From NCBI GenBank assembly GCA_949425635.1, contig CASPWD010000001.1, forward strand, positions 186,001-250,000: a stretch of DNA of 64,000 nt, read 5' to 3'. Positions 7,689 to 62,224 of this stretch are shown here, one piece after another. The translations under genes and the position numbers were made by a program. Position 1 is the first letter of the stretch, and each line of letters begins with the position of its first letter. Source of the DNA: an uncultured Bacilli bacterium (lineage in GTDB: Bacteria > Bacillota_I > Bacilli_A > RF39 > UBA660). Below the pieces are notes generated by a model. The model did not search any database. It was not told the DNA's origin and saw only the letters and a list, made by a program, of their open reading frames with translations.

Positions 7689-8753
7689 CTACATTCTTTC
7701 CATAGATTCAAAATACAATTTATCATCAACTATCTTTAAAGTATATCTATACTTATTATACTTATCACTTAATATTCCGTTATATATCTTATGAGTATCA
7801 TTCCATTTTAAATGATCTTCCGCAAGTTCTACTCCTACTTGATCTCCTATAGTCTTATAAACAAAACATTTTGGGTCAACACTACTTTCATCTAATTCAT
7901 ATCGAAGATAACCCAATTTAAATTCCAATACTAATTTATCTTTATTTCTTTTAACATCTAAAATATCAAAAACATATCTAGGTTCGTCTAATTCGCCTCC
8001 TGGATCACCAATTGCACTATACAAACCTCTTTCATATATTAAATCAATGCTATCCTGAATTAAATAATGTTTACCATTTTCTTTATAGTTATTAATAAAT
8101 GAAGTATCCTCAAAAACAAGATTATCTAATTCTTCTGGTTTAAAATAACAATCAACACAATAATATATATACCCTCCATTATCCTTGCTAAACTTAGATA
8201 AAGCTAAATACATTTTTTCGTCTATATTAAAATCTTCCTTAGTTATCTTGTCTTCGTTTTTATCAAATATTTTTTCTACCAATTTTTCATTAAGATGTAA
8301 CATAAAATTAACATAACTTAATGCTTCTGGAATCATCTCATCATCTTTCTCCAACTGAATAAATTCATTTGTATAATTTGAATTTTCACTTTCTTGGTTA
8401 TGATTAAATTTCTGAAAGACTACACCAATACAAATAACAACAACTAAAAATACTATAAGACCATATATCAAATATTTTTTCTTTTTAGTAATTTTATTTT
8501 CGATTATATTATTTTCTTTAACATCAGATACATCATGACAATTTTCTCTCTTGCCTCTCAAAAGCTCCTCCACAGTTACTCCAAGCATTCCACTCAAATC
8601 TTTTAAAATAGATATATCAGGAACATTTACTCCACGTTCCCACTTTGACACAGATTGACTTGTAATACCCAGCTTTCTAGCAATATCATCTTGTGTAAGA
8701 CCACGTTCCTTCCTAACTTTTGCAATAAATTCGCCAATATTATTTTGATTCAT
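7689..8753 (-). CDS. XRE-family HTH protein, membrane-anchored (paralogue B)
   Basis: 354 residues with the same plan as its neighbour: HTH at residues ~6-62 (LTQDDIARKLGITSQSVSKW), a Lys-rich stretch before a membrane helix near residues 93-113 (positive-inside, placing the HTH in the cytoplasm), then an external domain. That domain matches paralogue A but has an extra segment near residues 270-325 with Cys and Pro-Lys. The start is an ATG at 8753. First gene of a two-gene unit; no clear operator was identified upstream. No named family fits the C-terminal domain. Confidence 0.8.
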   Translation of the reverse strand: MNQNNIGEFIAKVRKERGLTQDDIARKLGITSQSVSKWERGVNVPDISILKDLSGMLGVTVEELLRGKRENCHDVSDVKENNIIENKITKKKKYLIYGLIVFLVVVICIGVVFQKFNHNQESENSNYTNEFIQLEKDDEMIPEALSYVNFMLHLNEKLVEKIFDKNEDKITKEDFNIDEKMYLALSKFSKDNGGYIYYCVDCYFKPEELDNLVFEDTSFINNYKENGKHYLIQDSIDLIYERGLYSAIGDPGGELDEPRYVFDILDVKRNKDKLVLEFKLGYLRYELDESSVDPKCFVYKTIGDQVGVELAEDHLKWNDTHKIYNGILSDKYNKYRYTLKIVDDKLYFESMERM

Positions 8754-40780: not shown

Positions 40781-40985
40781 AAAAAAATCCATAATCTAAG
40801 GACGAGTAAACACCCGCGGTACCACCTTAGTTTATGAATTTATCATACACTTTATTCTTAACGCGAAATAAACGTTTCAGCTCCAGAGCCATGTTTCCAG
40901 TATTTCATCGAATTCTTTTCACCAACCAGAATCTCTCTAAACAACTACTATAAAGGTACTCTTTCCTTCATTGCTGAATAAATCT
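40781..40985 (-). promoter_or_regulatory. T-box riboswitch, methionine type
   Basis: The T-box core AAGGTGGTACCGCGG is at 40814-40828. The terminator arms are CATAAACTAAGG (from 40825-40836) and CCTTAGATTATG (from 40790-40801), pairing with one A-A mismatch and followed by TTTTTTT (40781-40787). Stem I has an AGAGA motif and an apparent ATG specifier at 40890-40892 (GGAAACATGGC context). Uncharged tRNA-Met would stabilise the antiterminator and turn on dut-metG. Reading of the specifier is by context, not folding. Confidence 0.92.
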
Positions 40986-49812: not shown

Positions 49813-51510
49813 TTATTCAACCTCAAATGATCCAAAAATATCCTTGGCCACTGCTTCTATGTCGCTTTCGCTACTAGAAACTGCCATAGATTCATTATTT
49901 CCCAAATCATCTGTGTTTTCATTTTCTTCTTCAATATAATTATATTTTATTTGATTCTTCAAATTAAATCTATACTTTTCTGTTTCTTTCTTCCATAAAT
50001 CTTCATTTATTGCTGCAAATCGATAGCTAGAACCAGAATATTCAGCATAATATTTCTCGATTTTTTCGATTGTCTTGTTGATAAGTTCGTTTGTACTAGC
50101 TATTTTACTCTGTATCATAACATATCTATCTGAAGCAGCTAAGATAACAGTATCAGCCAATAAAGAAATTAAACTTCTATCCTTAGTCATCAAAGAATTC
50201 ATAAAATCAATCCAATTACTAGTTATCTTATTCTTTTGCTCCTTAGATGCATTAACAAAACAATTATTAATTCTTACATTTAAATCTATCTGTTTTTTTA
50301 CTACAGTATTAATTACTTCTTCCTTTTGAATAGATTCCTCTACAGTAGATAATACATCCTTAACTTCATGTTTCTCTATACTCTCTTTATTTCCCAAACT
50401 AACTGAATTTTTCTTAACTTCAGCTTTCTTAGAAGTAGTTTCCACAGCTATTTTATTTCCCGGGAAATAATTCTGACCATTATCTTCTCTTCCTACATAT
50501 TTAAGTAAGACAATTTCTATTAAAACATAAGGATCTATATTAATATTTATATTACATAAACACTCATTTAAATCAAAAATCATATTATATATATCTTCAA
50601 AATACATATCATGTTTTGCTCTTCCAGATTTAATATCAATTGCACACTTTCTTAGTTCAGAAATCAATTTTTCAATAAATACTGAATAGTTAGTGCCACT
50701 TTCCTTAATATTTCCCAAAATATTTAATAAATTTTCTGTATTACTTTCTTCGATACTTGTTAATAACTCATCAATTTTCTTAACTGAAACACTACCAAAA
50801 TAATTTGATACCATTTCCAAAGTAATTTCACTATCATCACTAGATAATTGATCCAACATTCCTAAAGCATCTCTCATACCACCGGCAGAGATCAAAGCGA
50901 TTTCATCTAATGCTTCTGGAGTAATACGAATTGATTCTTCCTCACATATTTTAGTTAATCTACCTACAATTGCTGGCTTATTTACTGGCTTAAAATCAAA
51001 TCTCTGACACCTTGATAGAATAGTTATAGGTACATCTTGAATATCCGTTGTCGCTAAAATAAAAACTACATGAGATGGTGGTTCCTCCAACGTTAATAAT
51101 AAAGCATTAAAAGCACTTGCAGTAAGCATATGTACCTCATCGATAATATATACTTTATACTTCGAATTAGATGGAACTAATTTCACGTTGTTGATAAGTT
51201 CCCTAATTTCATCTACACCATTATTTGATGCAGCATCGATTTCAATAATATCAGGGCTTTCCTTAAAAGAAAGACAAGAGGAACATTCATTACAAGGATT
51301 TCCATTTACTGGATGCTCACAATTTAAAGCCTTTGCAAAAATCTTAGCACTACTCGTCTTACCAGTTCCACGTGGCCCCGTAAATATATATGCGTGAGCA
51401 TGCTTCCCGCTACTTATAGCATTCTTTAGCATCTCCACCGTATAATCCTGTCCTACAACATTTTCAAAGTCATTAGGTCTATATTTTCTATATAAAACTT
51501 TATAGCTCAT
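49813..51510 (-). CDS. dnaX: DNA polymerase III tau/gamma subunit
   Basis: 565 residues. The AAA+ core has Walker A in FTGPRGTGKTSSAK near residue 44, a Zn-binding Cys set in CEHPVNGNPCNECSSC near 67-80, and DEVHMLTASAFNALLLTLEEPP near 118 (Walker B plus the sensor region). The C-terminal linker (~350-430) is low-complexity and contains a Noc-type site in its coding DNA. It ends with an acidic tail that would bind PolC. The start ATG at 51510 has an AGGAGG site inside a hairpin (see 51514-51557). Confidence 0.97.
   Translation of the reverse strand: MSYKVLYRKYRPNDFENVVGQDYTVEMLKNAISSGKHAHAYIFTGPRGTGKTSSAKIFAKALNCEHPVNGNPCNECSSCLSFKESPDIIEIDAASNNGVDEIRELINNVKLVPSNSKYKVYIIDEVHMLTASAFNALLLTLEEPPSHVVFILATTDIQDVPITILSRCQRFDFKPVNKPAIVGRLTKICEEESIRITPEALDEIALISAGGMRDALGMLDQLSSDDSEITLEMVSNYFGSVSVKKIDELLTSIEESNTENLLNILGNIKESGTNYSVFIEKLISELRKCAIDIKSGRAKHDMYFEDIYNMIFDLNECLCNININIDPYVLIEIVLLKYVGREDNGQNYFPGNKIAVETTSKKAEVKKNSVSLGNKESIEKHEVKDVLSTVEESIQKEEVINTVVKKQIDLNVRINNCFVNASKEQKNKITSNWIDFMNSLMTKDRSLISLLADTVILAASDRYVMIQSKIASTNELINKTIEKIEKYYAEYSGSSYRFAAINEDLWKKETEKYRFNLKNQIKYNYIEEENENTDDLGNNESMAVSSSESDIEAVAKDIFGSFEVE
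50455..50468. other. Noc-binding-type site inside dnaX
   Basis: ATTTCCCGGGAAAT, a perfect palindrome identical to the B. subtilis Noc consensus, embedded in codons for N-Y-F-P-G-N-K. Confidence 0.75.
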
Positions 51511-51513
51511 AAT

Positions 51514-51557
51514 AAAAACCTCCTGTGGATTATTATATCACAAAACAGGAGGTTTTT
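51514..51557 (-). promoter_or_regulatory. tadA terminator hairpin enclosing the dnaX promoter and ribosome-binding site
   Basis: AAAAACCTCCTGT (51514-51526) and ACAGGAGGTTTTT (51545-51557) form a perfect 13-bp stem with an 18-base loop. On the minus strand it acts as the tadA terminator. The loop contains the extended -10 TGATATAAT (51532-51540) for dnaX, and the second arm holds the dnaX ribosome-binding site AGGAGG (51519-51524). Confidence 0.8.
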
Positions 51558-51987
51558 ATCTCTTATTATTAAAAAAACTTGTTATTAAATCATTAAAATA
51601 ATTCTTCTCATCATCGTATCCTTCAATTAAAATTTTATTTATAGAAATATCTAAACTTAAATCATCATTCTTCTTAGGTAAAAAATAAAAAATCTGATCT
51701 AATCGACTCTCTTTTATAACCATAGAACACATATTACAAGGTTCCAAAGTAACATACATCCTATATCCATTAAGACGCCAATCCTTTATTTTATTTTCTG
51801 CTTTCTTAATAGCAGTTATCTCAGCATGACCTAATACATCATAAGCTTTCTGACGACTATTACAAGCATGAGAAACAATCTTACCTAATTCATCGACAAT
51901 AATTGCACTTACAGGTATTTCTCCTCTCTTAAACGCCTTAAAAGCGTCTTTTTTAAGGATTTTTACTATATTTTCATCTATATTCAT
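51556..51987 (-). CDS. tadA: tRNA-specific adenosine deaminase
   Basis: 143 residues from ATG 51987 (GTAGGTG site 6 bases before); the GTG at 51996 is in that site. It makes inosine at tRNA-Arg position 34. VLGHAEITAIKKA holds the zinc His and catalytic Glu, and TLEPCNMCSMVI the two zinc Cys. Slightly short of the usual ~155 residues. It sits between the SRP RNA and dnaX, as in B. subtilis (yaaJ-scr-dnaX, with a change in order). The hairpin at its stop doubles as dnaX control. Confidence 0.93.
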   Translation of the reverse strand: MNIDENIVKILKKDAFKAFKRGEIPVSAIIVDELGKIVSHACNSRQKAYDVLGHAEITAIKKAENKIKDWRLNGYRMYVTLEPCNMCSMVIKESRLDQIFYFLPKKNDDLSLDISINKILIEGYDDEKNYFNDLITSFFNNKR

Positions 51988-52001
51988 CATATTCACCTAC
52001 A

Positions 52002-52080
52002 AAAAAAGTGCACACAGATAGAGATTGATGTGGCTGCTACCTTCCGGTCCTGACCAGGTTACAATATGTCTGTTGCACGG
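52002..52080 (-). ncRNA. ffs: Signal recognition particle RNA, small type
   Basis: About 75 nt. The conserved apical loop GGTCAGGACCGGAAGG and TAGCAGCC is present on the minus strand, closed by long arms beginning GTGCAACAGA and ending TCTGTGTGCAC, then TTTTTTT. This is the 4.5S-like form with no Alu domain, whereas B. subtilis has a ~270-nt RNA. Precedes tadA. Confidence 0.95.
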
Positions 52081-52084
52081 GTAT

Positions 52085-52093
52085 ATAATATCA
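52085..52093 (-). promoter_or_regulatory. Promoter of SRP RNA
   Basis: Extended -10 TGATATTAT on the minus strand, with start about 6 bases from the RNA 5' end. -35 is weak (TTGCAT, near 52108-52113). Confidence 0.65.
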
Positions 52094-52126: not shown

Positions 52127-52142
52127 GGTTTCACGTGAAACA
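52127..52142. other. parS site 1
   Basis: GTTTCACGTGAAAC core (52128-52141) perfect; 15 of 16 positions of the B. subtilis consensus. Confidence 0.9.
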
Positions 52143-52214
52143 TGTCAAAAACTTAACATAATTAATAAAACATTTCACAAATAACAGTTTTTTCTGCATA
52201 ACTATCCACAATTT

Positions 52215-52228
52215 ATTTCCCGGGAAAT
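52215..52228. other. Noc-binding-type site, perfect
   Basis: ATTTCCCGGGAAAT between parS 1 and 2, with a DnaA-box-like CTATCCACA (52202-52210) immediately before it. Confidence 0.78.
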
Positions 52229-52385
52229 ATTTTCCAAAAAAGAGACGATATTTAACGCATGATCTCCTAAAATAACTTATAAAAAAATGCTAAAATAAAC
52301 TTTTCGCGAATCAAAAAAGAATAAAAAGAAATAAACTATAAAATAAAGTTAAAAATCAGCTTCTAAAAATTCCATTTACTAACAA

Positions 52386-52401
52386 TGTTCCACGTGAAAC
52401 A
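52386..52401. other. parS site 2
   Basis: TGTTCCACGTGAAACA; one change (T to C) from consensus. Followed directly by a DnaA-box-like ATATCAACA. Confidence 0.88.
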
Positions 52402-52539
52402 TATCAACAGCACCCAAAAAATTTAATTGAACGAAAATTTTAAAAATTGTTTAGGAAAGACGCTATTTATCAAATTTTTTTTCAATTATTAAGGATTAGA
52501 TGAAATTTAACTATATTAAAAATATATATTCAGTTTTAA

Positions 52540-52555
52540 AGTTTCACGTGAAACA
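52540..52555. other. parS site 3
   Basis: AGTTTCACGTGAAACA; perfect 14-base core, 15 of 16 overall. Confidence 0.9.
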
Positions 52556-52649
52556 TATTAACAGCGAATGAGAATTTAGATTCTGGGAAATATTTTTAAA
52601 TCAGAAAAGGATTCCAGAATAGTTAATTTTATAAACTAGATACTCTTTA

Positions 52650-52665
52650 TGTTTCACGTGAAACA
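52650..52665. other. parS site 4
   Basis: TGTTTCACGTGAAACA; 16 of 16 match to the B. subtilis consensus. Confidence 0.93.
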
Positions 52666-52700
52666 TGTCCACATTTTTTTAGCTAGAATATATTTTTTAA

Positions 52701-52716
52701 TGTTCCACGTGAAACA
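52701..52716. other. parS site 5
   Basis: TGTTCCACGTGAAACA; the same one-base variant as site 2, only 51 bases from site 4. Confidence 0.88.
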
Positions 52717-52735
52717 TTGTTTTCCACACCATAAT

Positions 52736-52749
52736 ATTTCCCAGGAAAT
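52736..52749. other. Noc-binding-type site, one mismatch
   Basis: ATTTCCCAGGAAAT (13 of 14), 20 bases after parS 5. Confidence 0.7.
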
Positions 52750-52759
52750 AATCGCATAT

Positions 52760-52802
52760 AAAAAGAACCGAGACGATAACTTCTTCAAGTTATTTCATCT
52801 CG
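52760..52802 (-). terminator. Terminator for leftward transcripts out of gyrA
   Basis: CGAGACGATAACTT (52769-52782) pairs with AAGTTATTTCATCTCG (52787-52802) with an imperfect base, CTTC loop; GTTCTTTTTAT follows on the minus strand. It lies about 200 bases past the gyrA stop. Confidence 0.8.
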
Positions 52803-52906
52803 ATTCCTATTTCGTAATCTCTTTATTTAACTTTTTTGGCTTATATTAGGCAAATATTTGCAATTTCAGCCTTTAAAAATAATGGATTTTTTACACAATT
52901 TTTAGT

Positions 52907-52922
52907 AGTTTCACGTGAAACA
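52907..52922. other. parS site 6
   Basis: AGTTTCACGTGAAACA; perfect core, 15 of 16 overall, followed by ATATCAACA as at site 2. Confidence 0.9.
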
Positions 52923-52935
52923 TATCAACAATTTT

Positions 52936-52949
52936 ATTTCCCGAGAAAT
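52936..52949. other. Noc-binding-type site, one mismatch
   Basis: ATTTCCCGAGAAAT (13 of 14), 14 bases after parS 6, with TTTTCCACA just beyond it. Confidence 0.7.
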
Positions 52950-53004: not shown

Positions 53005-55581
53005 TTATACTTCACTTATATTTTCCACAACTACATCTGTGGTTTCATTATTAACAACTTCATCAGTAGATATTTCATTGTTATCCACAGTTTCATTGCT
53101 CACTTCAGTAGAACTTTCGCTGTTCATAACTTCAGAATTATCAACACCTGGCTCAGGAGTTTCCTCTTCCTTTTCTTTATCCACTAAACTAATTGTAGCA
53201 ACAATATGGTCATCTTTCAAGTTAATTAATCGAACTCCTTGAGTTACACGTCCTAAAACGTTAATTTGATCAAGTGGCATACGCATTACCATACCAGCAT
53301 CCGTAATAATTACTAAATCTGATTCTGGTCTTGCAATCTTAAATGCTGCAATATCACCATTCTTATCAGTAATACTCAATGCTTTAACACCCTTACTGCC
53401 ACGTTTCGTTTCTCTATACTCAGCTACTTTAGACTGTTTTCCGTAACCTTTCTTAGTTACAATAAGTACTGTATCCTCGTCTGACGCAATTTCAGCCCCA
53501 ATACAAGTCGAATCATCTAATTCAATACCTTTTACTCCAGAAGCTGTTCTTCCCATTATACGAACGTCATTTTCATTAAATTTAACCATACGTCCACCAC
53601 TAGAACCTAACAATACAAATTCATTTCCAGTAGTCTTTCTAACAGCAATTAATTCATCGTCCTCTTTTAGAGTAATACAAATCTTTCCACCATTTCTTAT
53701 AGAATCAAACTCAGAAACAGCAGTACGTTTAACCAAACCAGACTTAGTAACAAACAATAAGTTATCCACTTCTTCATCCTTAGAAATCTTAATAATAGAA
53801 TTAACAAGTTCTCCCTTATCTATTGGTAACAAGTTAACAACAGGTAATCCTTTAGATTGTCTACTAAATTCTGGTATCTCATAACCCTTCAATCTATAAA
53901 CCTTACCCTTGTTAGTAAAGAATAATACATGATCATGAGTTTGAATATTAATCATATGTTCAACGAAATCTTCCTCATTCGTAGCCATACCCTTAATACC
54001 AACGCCACCTCTATTTTGTGACTTAAATGTATCAGAAGTAGTTCTCTTAATATAACCTTTATTCGTTAATGCAATAATAACATCTTCATTAGGTATTAAA
54101 GACTCATCTTCAATATAATCAATAGCAGTCATATCTATCTTAGTACGTCTTTCATCACCGAACTTATTCTTAATTTCAGTCATTTCTTCCTTAATAATAT
54201 TAAGTACTTTCTCTTCACTAGCTAAAATAGATCTTAACTCTTCAATTTCCTTCATTAATTCAGCCAACTCAGCTTCAATCTTATCTCTTTCTAATCCAGT
54301 TAAACGACGTAATCTCATTTCTAGAATAGCTTGAGCTTGAATCTCAGTTAAACCAAATCTATTCATTAATCCAGTTTGTGCTTCACTATCACTCTTAGAA
54401 GCTCTGATTAACTTAACAACTTCATCAATATTATCTAAAGCAATCTTTAATCCCTCTAAAATATGAGCTCTCTTCTCTGCTTTATCTAAATTAAACTTAG
54501 TTCTTCTTATAATAACTTCTTTTTGATAATCAACATATTTAACAATAATATCTTTTAAGCCTAAAGTCTTAGGAACACCTTGATCTAACATCAAAAGAAT
54601 TATACCAAAATTACTTTGAAAATCTGTATGTTTATACAATTGATTTAATACAACCTGTGGATTCGCATCCTTCTTTAAAGTAATAGTAATCTTAATACCA
54701 TTTTTTAAATCAACATGGTAATCTGTAATACCTTCAATGACTTTATTATGTACTAAATCAGCAACTTTATTTTTTAAATCTCCAGTATTAACACCATAAG
54801 GAACTTCTTCAACAACGATATAATGTCTACCATTCTTTTCTTCAATAGTAGCTTTACTTCTTATAGTAATTGAACCTCTACCAGTTTCATAAGCTTTTCT
54901 AATACCAGAATTACCTAAAATAATACCACCAGTAGGAAAATCTGGTCCCTTAACGATTTGCATTAATCCATCTAAATCAATATCAGGATTATCAATATAA
55001 GCAATACATCCATCTATAACCTCACATAAGTTATGTGGTGGAATATTAGTTGCCATACCAACAGCAATACCCATAGTACCATTTACTAAAATATTAGGAT
55101 ATCTACATGGTAATATAGCAGGCTCTTTCTCTGAATCATCGAAGTTAGGAACCATATCTACAGTATCCTTGTTGATATCTCTTAATAATTCAAGTGACAT
55201 CTTAGATAATCTTGACTCAGTATAACGCATGGCTGCTGCACCATAACCTTCGATATTACCGAAATTTCCGTGTCCATCAACAAGCATATAACGATAACTA
55301 AAGTCTTGTGCCATTCTAACCATTGCTTCATAAATAGATGAATCACCATGTGGATGGTATTTACCCATTACGTCTCCGACAATTCTAGCACTCTTTTTAT
55401 GAGGTTTATCTGGTGTATATCCAGATTCATACATAGAATAAAGAATTCTTCTATGAACTGGTTTTAAACCATCTCTTAAATCTGGTAAAGCACGAGATAC
55501 AATAACACTCATGGAATAATCCAAAAATGAATCTCTAACCTCTTTAACAATATTATTTTGTTCTAATCTATCCACAACCAT
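53005..55581 (-). CDS. gyrA: DNA gyrase subunit A
   Basis: 858 residues. The breakage-reunion domain (~1-490) carries the catalytic Tyr in [11 protein letters not shown] near residue 120 and the quinolone-determining region with [13 protein letters not shown] near 80. The C-terminal half (~500-810) has the pinwheel blades and the GyrA-box region ([11 protein letters not shown]). A long acidic Glu/Asn/Val tail (~805-858) extends past the usual end, which is common in Firmicutes. Pairs with GyrB to add negative supercoils. It begins 7 bases after gyrB. AGGAGGTG ribosome-binding site close to ATG. An NBS-dense region follows it. Confidence 0.97.
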
Positions 55582-60429: not shown

Positions 60430-60585
60430 ATTAATTCCTTCTTTCTTTTTATATTATTTATAGTATTCATTATTATTACAATGTTGATAATGTGGATAAC
60501 ATCATTCTTGTCCACAATTATATGGGAAAAACGTTGATTTTTTTCTGTTGATAAACATTAACTTTTCCACATTTAATTCACAATA
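60430..60585. other. oriC part between dnaA and dnaN: DnaA boxes and unwinding-element candidate
   Basis: DnaA boxes TGTTGATAA (60482-60490) and TGTGGATAA (60491-60499, perfect) are adjacent, with TTGTCCACA (60508-60516), TGTTGATAA (60546-60554) and TTTTCCACA (60563-60571). Next to the tandem boxes, toward dnaN on the minus strand, lies an AT-rich run reading TAATAATAATGAATAC, which fits the DnaA-trio pattern. This is the B. subtilis incC-like position. Confidence 0.85.
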
Positions 60586-61956
60586 TTATAATTTTGTCTT
60601 AATTTCATTAATAATTTCTTTTAATTGACTATTACTTTTTAAGTCTTCTTCTATCTTATCTACAGCATGTATTACTGTCGAATGGTCTCTTCCACCAAAT
60701 TCTAATCCTATTCTAGGGAACGATTCATCAGTTAACATTCTACATAAATACATAGCTACCATTCTTGGATAAGCTATATTAGCACTTCTTCTCTTACCTT
60801 TTAGTACTTCTACTGTTAATTTATAGTAATCAGCTACTGCCTTTTGTATACTTACAATATCATTTGTAACATAAGGATTCTTTGTTATGTAGTCTTTTAA
60901 AGCTTCATTAGCAAACTCAAGATCAATTTTATCAGGAACATACATAGCTGTATAAGCAACTAATCTATTAATTGATCCCTCTAAGCTTCTTACATCTGTA
61001 TCAAAGTTACTAGCAATAAATTCAACCGCTTCATCAGTCATTTTACTCTCTAATGTTGTAGATCTATTTATTTTATCCTTAATAATACGACATCTTAAAT
61101 CAAAGTCAGGTGGATATATATCAACTGGTAATCCCCATGCAAATCTACTTCTAAGTCTCTCTTCTAGCAGTTTTAAGTCTTCAGGACTTCTATCGGAACT
61201 TATTATTATTTGTTTATTTCTTGAATGTAAGTCATTAAATGTATGGAAGAATTCTTCTTGTGTCTTTTCTGCACCAACTAAATATTGAATATCATCTATT
61301 ATTAACACATCTATATTTCTATATTTATTTTTAAAGTTATTTGCATAATCCATTGCATTATTATTCTGACTAGCAATTCCTGTATAATCATTCTTGAAAT
61401 CCGCACTAGTAGTATATAAAACTTTCAAATCACTATTATTTTCAGTAATATAGTTACCAATTGCATGCATTAAATGAGTCTTACCAAGTCCACTTTTTCC
61501 ATATATAAATAATGGATTATAGCTTTCCCCAGGCTTTTGTGCTACCGCAAAAGCTGCAGTTCTAGCAAATTTATTAGTATCTCCAACTACAAAGCTATCA
61601 AAGTTCAAGGATTTATCTAAATTACTTTCAAATTTTTCGGTTTTAATGTTGTTTATAACCTCGTTGTTATTCACAACTTCATCAATAAGTGTTTCTTCTG
61701 GTTTCTTAATCTCATCTTCAAGTAAGCACTCTATTTCTCTTTCAGTTCCAGTAACTGTAACAAAGCTTTCATTAATTAAATCATAGTAATTAGATAATAA
61801 CCATCTTTTATGTAGGGCCATTGGTACTTGTAAAACTATTTTTTTATCATCAATTGTATATAATTTGGTATCTTTAAACCATGTACCAAAAGATACTGGA
61901 TTAAGTTCTTTCTCTATAATATCTAGAACTTGCACCCAAATATCATCAGATTTCAC
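60586..61956 (-). CDS. dnaA: Chromosomal replication initiator DnaA
   Basis: 456 residues. Domain I (~1-80, WVQVLDIIEKELNPVSFGTWF), variable linker (~85-115), AAA+ domain III with Walker A FIYGKSGLGKTHLMHAIGN near 150 and Walker B DVLIIDDIQYL near 215, and C-terminal domain IV ending with VAMYLCRMLTDESFPRIGLEFGGRDHSTVIHA, the DnaA-box-binding HTH. It is the initiator, flanked by DnaA-box clusters on both sides. The start is a GTG at 61956 behind GGGGTG. Confidence 0.98.
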   Translation of the reverse strand: MKSDDIWVQVLDIIEKELNPVSFGTWFKDTKLYTIDDKKIVLQVPMALHKRWLLSNYYDLINESFVTVTGTEREIECLLEDEIKKPEETLIDEVVNNNEVINNIKTEKFESNLDKSLNFDSFVVGDTNKFARTAAFAVAQKPGESYNPLFIYGKSGLGKTHLMHAIGNYITENNSDLKVLYTTSADFKNDYTGIASQNNNAMDYANNFKNKYRNIDVLIIDDIQYLVGAEKTQEEFFHTFNDLHSRNKQIIISSDRSPEDLKLLEERLRSRFAWGLPVDIYPPDFDLRCRIIKDKINRSTTLESKMTDEAVEFIASNFDTDVRSLEGSINRLVAYTAMYVPDKIDLEFANEALKDYITKNPYVTNDIVSIQKAVADYYKLTVEVLKGKRRSANIAYPRMVAMYLCRMLTDESFPRIGLEFGGRDHSTVIHAVDKIEEDLKSNSQLKEIINEIKTKL

Positions 61957-62224
61957 GTACCATCACCCCACTTCGACCAATCTGTACAAATATTTTAACT
62001 CAAGCTGTGGAAAATTAAAAGAAATATTTTTTAATTTTTTTGCTATCAACAGCATATCCACAAACTTACTAACAATTTACATCGCATAAACACTAGTATA
62101 CCTTTATTTATCAACACTATCAACAATTTTCAAATACACATGTTGAAAAAGTTATCCACATATCCACAGGCAAATGTTGATAAGTAGAAAAAAGTCGAAA
62201 AATCACGATTAAGTAAAGTAATTC
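61957..62224. other. oriC part between dnaA and rpmH: DnaA-box cluster
   Basis: Non-coding. DnaA boxes: perfect TTATCCACA (62152-62160); ATATCCACA (62054-62062, 62160-62168); TTATCAACA (62108-62116); TGTTGATAA (62175-62183); and weaker TGTGGAAAA (62006-62014), CTATCAACA (62043-62051, 62117-62125), TGTTGAAAA (62141-62149). Corresponds to incA/incB of B. subtilis, giving a bipartite origin with the cluster at 60430-60585. Confidence 0.9.

Follow-up and report, generated by a model that had tools for sequence, protein, structure and literature searches.

The window, a stretch of 64,000 nucleotides from a gut bacterium, carries dnaA as the marker of the origin. About 8 kb from this gene, a mixed block of two site types lies in the non-coding DNA that separates the SRP RNA gene from the 3' end of gyrA. 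They are parS, the site type of ParB (chromosome segregation), with the perfect 14-bp core GTTTCACGTGAAAC, and NBS, the site type of Noc (division control), with the perfect form ATTTCCCGGGAAAT. The features are as follows.

49813..51510, minus strand: dnaX, conserved neighbour
50455..50468: NBS, perfect, within the dnaX coding sequence and absent from the initial annotation
51556..51996, minus strand: tadA-like deaminase gene, conserved neighbour
51991..52089, minus strand: SRP RNA gene (Rfam RF00169), one border of the block
52128..52141: parS, perfect 14-bp core
52215..52228: NBS, perfect, TATTTCCCGGGAAATA
52387..52400: parS variant GTTCCACGTGAAAC, one mismatch, recurrent in the bacterial family
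52541..52554: parS, perfect
52651..52664: parS, perfect
52702..52715: parS variant GTTCCACGTGAAAC, one mismatch, 34 bp start to start from the NBS at 52736
52736..52749: NBS, one mismatch, ATTTCCCAGGAAAT
52908..52921: parS, perfect, 28 bp start to start from the NBS at 52936
52936..52949: NBS, one mismatch, ATTTCCCGAGAAAT
53005..55581, minus strand: gyrA, the other border, with its 3' end facing the block
60586..61956, minus strand: dnaA

The initial annotation had placed six parS (four perfect) and three NBS (one perfect) in this non-coding block, and all its coordinates hold. Groups of DnaA boxes lie on both sides of dnaA, at 60491-60664 and 62006-62183. NBS are found on both flanks of this presumed origin, and parS on one flank only. 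Four DnaA-box-like words, one of them perfect, occur at the gyrA 3' end (53021-53185), next to the block. Elsewhere in the window, a T-box leader (RF00230) occupies 40795-40980 on the minus strand.

We scanned the whole assembly (2.39 Mb, 29 contigs, 93% complete) for both sites. With at most one mismatch, it contains six parS and six NBS, and the backwards-pattern controls gave one and zero. The idea that the NBS-like sites are chance matches was rejected on the basis of these near-zero controls. All six parS fall inside 794 bp, with none outside the block. The six NBS fall inside 14.2 kb. Only three are outside the block, all within 13 kb: the one in dnaX and two between jag and mnmE (G000:C1:250396 and 250678), just past the right end of the window. 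The initial annotation had named equally dense parS elsewhere, or the lack of both a Noc homologue and any other NBS, as what would count against it. Neither was encountered.

It had also left open whether a Noc homologue exists. The genome encodes three proteins of the ParB fold, namely a chromosomal ParB, a Noc homologue about 16 kb from the block and a third, divergent ParB. The smc gene is also present. The two genes that matter here are the following.

G000:C1:254782-256296 (L025 8783-10297): noc, 504 amino acids, in the order mnmE-mnmG-rsmG-noc
G000:C1:285329-286991: parAB, past the right end of the window (ParA at L026 5330-6115, ParB at L026 6105-6992)

The chromosomal ParB has 295 amino acids and follows a Soj-type ParA. 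It carries the ParA-binding motif LGKGL, together with GKSRSYITN and MGHAR. Its residues at positions 173/179/184/201 are R, L, N and G, read by eye against the Caulobacter numbering. A chromosomal ParABS system is expected to show the parS consensus near oriC and, beside ParA, a ParB with the ParA-binding motif and R173/G201; both are met. The gene for Noc lies beside rsmG, the usual place of noc. The best PDB matches of the protein are Geobacillus Noc (7ng0/7nfu, E 1e-57), and B. subtilis Noc is also among the best. A maximum-likelihood tree joins this and the other family Noc proteins to the B. subtilis and Geobacillus Noc (support 99/94), apart from Bacillota ParB, and the chromosomal ParB falls among the latter. 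Against TIGR04285, the Noc scores 277.1 bits, under the curated cut-off of 315; its linker splits the two domains of the model.

Jalal et al. (2020) assigned the specificity residues Q/K/K/R to Noc and R/G to ParB (PMC7383237). The Noc studied here has Q, K, N and R, so that three of the four agree and position 184 is N instead of K. A single lysine at 179 or 184 is reported there to be enough to license binding (PMC7383237). The third ParB (G000:C1:140768) was considered as the NBS protein and rejected; it is distant from both the Noc and ParB models and sits beside its own ParA. This pair (G000:C1:139879-141619; L027 3880-5620) adjoins repeat-rich surface-protein and sortase-like genes and is probably an integrated mobile element.

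We then asked how far the layout extends among relatives. With at most one mismatch, NBS occur in 55 of 58 family genomes and parS in 54, with controls of 0-1. A manual count covered sixteen genomes that represent different genera and had both site lists available. NBS lie inside the parS cluster in 11 of them, two have complete clusters without NBS (G077 and G071, where both sites are close yet not interleaved) and three are cut by contig ends. A composite scan for a perfect NBS with a parS no more than 30 bp away, with one genome per species, returned at least 115 such stretches, from a range of taxa that is not exhaustive. When the window's own genes were used in tblastn, the order gyrA-block-tadA-dnaX-recR was found for all but one of the placed matches listed. 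The exception, L162 (Firmicutes bacterium UBA5449), has an adjacent parS/NBS pair at 7732-7785, near its noc, and is perhaps an independent case. Among 395 genomes of the class, the exact composite is present in 14 of 54 family members and in none of the 341 others.

Nearly every record title among the matches listed names uncultured Bacilli, Bacillales, Tenericutes or Erysipelotrichaceae, with Candidatus Onthousia and Candidatus Scybalousia included, and a small number read Clostridia, Firmicutes or bacterium. Going by these named genera, we take the family to be RF39-like; the NCBI taxonomy lists Onthousia only as Bacilli incertae sedis. The mixed layout recurs at the orthologous position in dozens of uncultured relatives at species level and is conserved across dozens of genera, a pattern not expected if the sites lay together by chance. 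Judged from these sequences, members of this family of uncultured Bacilli have inherited the mixed block. The proposal in the initial annotation of a single centromere block with both site types side by side is supported by this conserved layout, while the loading of ParB and Noc remains an inference.

We consider it likely that the block is the chromosomal centromere with side-by-side loading sites for two paralogous CTP-clamp proteins, where parS would load ParB and NBS a divergent Noc, and that Noc acts as an origin-restricted second centromere protein. The sites, their confinement to the origin region, the matching genes, the orthologous position, the tandem units, the loss of a helix and the gain of a linker (the last three described below) are established at the level of sequence. 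Co-loading and function are inferred, without binding, localisation or mutant data in any member. Further points that weigh against this reading are the TIGR04285 score of Noc, its N at position 184, the relatives with close yet separate parS and NBS, and, in the window, the lack of a tandem array and the loose fit to the family phase.

Another explanation is ordinary nucleoid occlusion. Noc would work as in B. subtilis and bind many degenerate NBS, those of the block being merely the strongest and lying near parS since both systems favour the origin. Noc sites are indeed origin-biased in B. subtilis and S. aureus, where all but one of the 41 S. aureus loci lie within 700 kb of the origin (PMC5540599). 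Other families of the class have few near-perfect NBS, and these are dispersed; their NBS with two mismatches exceed the controls and are dispersed as well, as expected of the B. subtilis type. A search for MinC found none in family members or in the other sampled families, so these cells could use a regulator of the division site and Noc could still matter for division. However, the NBS of the window's family are mostly perfect and few, and degenerate sites past the strong ones are scarcely, if at all, in excess in most of its genomes. In this genome, the scan at two mismatches gave no clear excess either (11 against 3 in the control, six of the 11 being the strong sites). The scatter of NBS over the chromosome except the terminus, which is expected of Noc, is not seen in this 93%-complete assembly, with only six sites in the origin region. 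Furthermore, the strong NBS are packed at one locus and interleaved with parS.

The N-terminus of Noc also speaks against occlusion. The membrane helix is needed for this function in B. subtilis (PMC8429893). Geobacillus Noc has about 21 extra N-terminal residues, including the membrane-binding amphipathic helix, and family Noc proteins lack them. The Noc of this genome starts 16 amino acids before PNRFQPR, with just six further codons open upstream, and no N-terminal amphipathic membrane-targeting helix was found in it. The helix is likewise absent in 30 family Noc, which start about 15-20 residues before PNRFQPR (two are longer and ambiguous). Noc proteins of other families in the class keep helix-type starts, MFSFFSK or MGLFDFL. 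In all family Noc (339-706 amino acids), an acquired low-complexity linker separates the DNA-binding domain from the C-terminal one. This linker has about 260 disordered residues in the Noc of this genome. Its AlphaFold2 model is ordered at 5-204 and 463-504 and disordered between, save for helices at 227-240 and 441-449. Regular expressions recovered an IEDIKANAMDI-like motif in 21 of 30 linkers and [KRNL]FF also in 21 of 30. With the helix missing and degenerate sites in little or no excess, ordinary nucleoid occlusion seems unlikely.

Noc might instead act locally, to regulate replication initiation or the transcription of dnaX, gyrA or jag-mnmE. The NBS would then be operator-like and their closeness to parS secondary. 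S. aureus Noc restrains replication initiation (PMC5540599). NBS flank dnaA on both sides, and they are also found in dnaX, in the jag-mnmE interval and ahead of noc. In the relatives, the clusters contain 1.37 DnaA-box-like words per kb, about double the density outside them (0.68 per kb). The NBS of the dnaX linker region is present in 25 of 80 relatives with scorable dnaX, and this coding stretch may double as a Noc site, although no binding data exist. It is mostly in the frame encoding ISREI(I/K), in the linker region of tau, and is sometimes repeated, with three copies 48 bp apart in L126.

Local regulation leaves two properties of the clusters unexplained, and we regard it as quite improbable. 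The first is their tandem organization. Many lineages have units of 62-105 bp, each with exactly one parS and one NBS:

L062: 79-bp unit, 25 alternating sites
L124: 75-bp unit, 18 sites
L142: 76-bp unit, 13 sites
L105: 84-bp unit, 12 sites
L170: 105-bp unit, 12 sites
L182: 62-bp unit, 12 sites
L088: 64-bp unit
L063: 66-bp unit

The periods and spacers differ between arrays, which suggests repeated origins at this one locus. Many short-read contigs end within an array. The block of the window itself contains no tandem array.

The second property is a preferred helical phase. Spacings of neighbouring parS and NBS show peaks close to 26, 36 and 47 bp, with the best fold at 10.5 bp (R 0.28-0.31). 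No 10.5-bp phase was seen in homotypic parS-parS and NBS-NBS distances. The phasing persisted after near-identical spacers were removed (p < 1e-3). It also persisted with species grouped at 80-85% nucleotide identity, both for group means (p 0.0008-0.005) and for distinct distances (1e-4 or less). Grouping at 78% made it weaker (p 0.02 and 0.0005, respectively). It was lost under single linkage at 75% nucleotide identity, where nearly all loci merged, and, for group means, when loci were grouped by shared spacers. With one pair per locus, p was 0.0008 before spacer deduplication and 0.07 after. The phase is therefore significant with genus-level grouping and not with the strictest grouping. 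The shortest distances in the window (28 and 34 bp) are only a loose fit to the family phase. These results are suggestive of simultaneous, face-specific binding of ParB and Noc.

Across the family, parS extends to ATGTTTCACGTGAAACAT, and NBS have A/T tracts on either side. Some relatives (e.g. L110, L127 and L129) carry a symmetric parS variant, GTTCCACGTGGAAC, which the one-mismatch canonical search missed. A reading of the NBS-like palindrome as an additional ParB target, or as the site of another protein, is scarcely credible: parS and NBS do differ at just two positions in each half-site, and ParB variants that are promiscuous in vitro have been described (PMC7383237), but the ParB of this genome has R173/G201 and not Q173/R201, a noc with Q/K/-/R is encoded near the origin in nearly all members, and the NBS core hardly varies across hundreds of sites, partly from selection at no more than one mismatch.

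Returning to the centromere with two proteins, ParB would load at parS, spread, engage ParA through LGKGL and recruit SMC. Noc would load at NBS on the same stretch, and an origin-restricted complex would form. There, Noc may organise, tether or license the newly segregated origin, or restrain replication initiation or division. It would thus be a second centromere protein and not a chromosome-wide nucleoid occlusion factor. A more specific version is possible, although we hold it only as a tentative and rather doubtful idea. ParB and Noc would build one stereospecific mixed centromere complex, in which the parS/NBS phase of about n+0.43 turns of 10.5 bp lets the clamps touch or be read together. 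The linker motifs of Noc (the IEDIKANAxDI-like helix and KFF) would bind ParB, SMC, DnaA or the membrane, replacing the lost N-terminal helix, and Noc would be a second kinetochore-like protein.

Noc originated in a duplication of ParB and has been characterised as a membrane-bound inhibitor of division that acts chromosome-wide. In Caulobacter, several parS are clustered within a few kb of the origin, as here, and no second clamp-loading site family is known to be mixed in. The B. subtilis Spo0J (ParB)-parS and Noc-NBS systems resemble ours in both site consensuses, the paralogous proteins, the noc gene beside rsmG and the specificity residues, three of the four in Noc (PMC7383237). However, in B. 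subtilis the parS are distributed over the origin-proximal chromosome and the NBS occupy about two thirds of the whole, whereas here both are interleaved in one origin zone of about 14 kb. The B. subtilis Noc also has the membrane helix, which the 504-residue protein lacks. S. aureus Noc shares the NBS consensus, the origin-biased sites and a replication-control role near dnaA (PMC5540599). It differs in having 41 loci over about 1.4 Mb and no ParA counterpart, and no interleaved parS/NBS block is reported. In searches of the open-access literature, we found no report of a mixed ParB/Noc centromere array. As far as that literature goes, the parts are known, and the union of the site types, the origin-only NBS and the reshaped Noc have not been described.

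Throughout this bacterial family, Noc seems to have been pulled back to the centromere, with its sites paired unit by unit with parS. This apparent return was accompanied by the loss of the membrane helix. The family could therefore serve as a natural experiment on the role that Noc has when it does not bind the membrane. It could also show whether clamps of ParB and Noc on a single DNA work together or are mutually exclusive, and how evolution shapes a centromere repeat that carries two binding sites.
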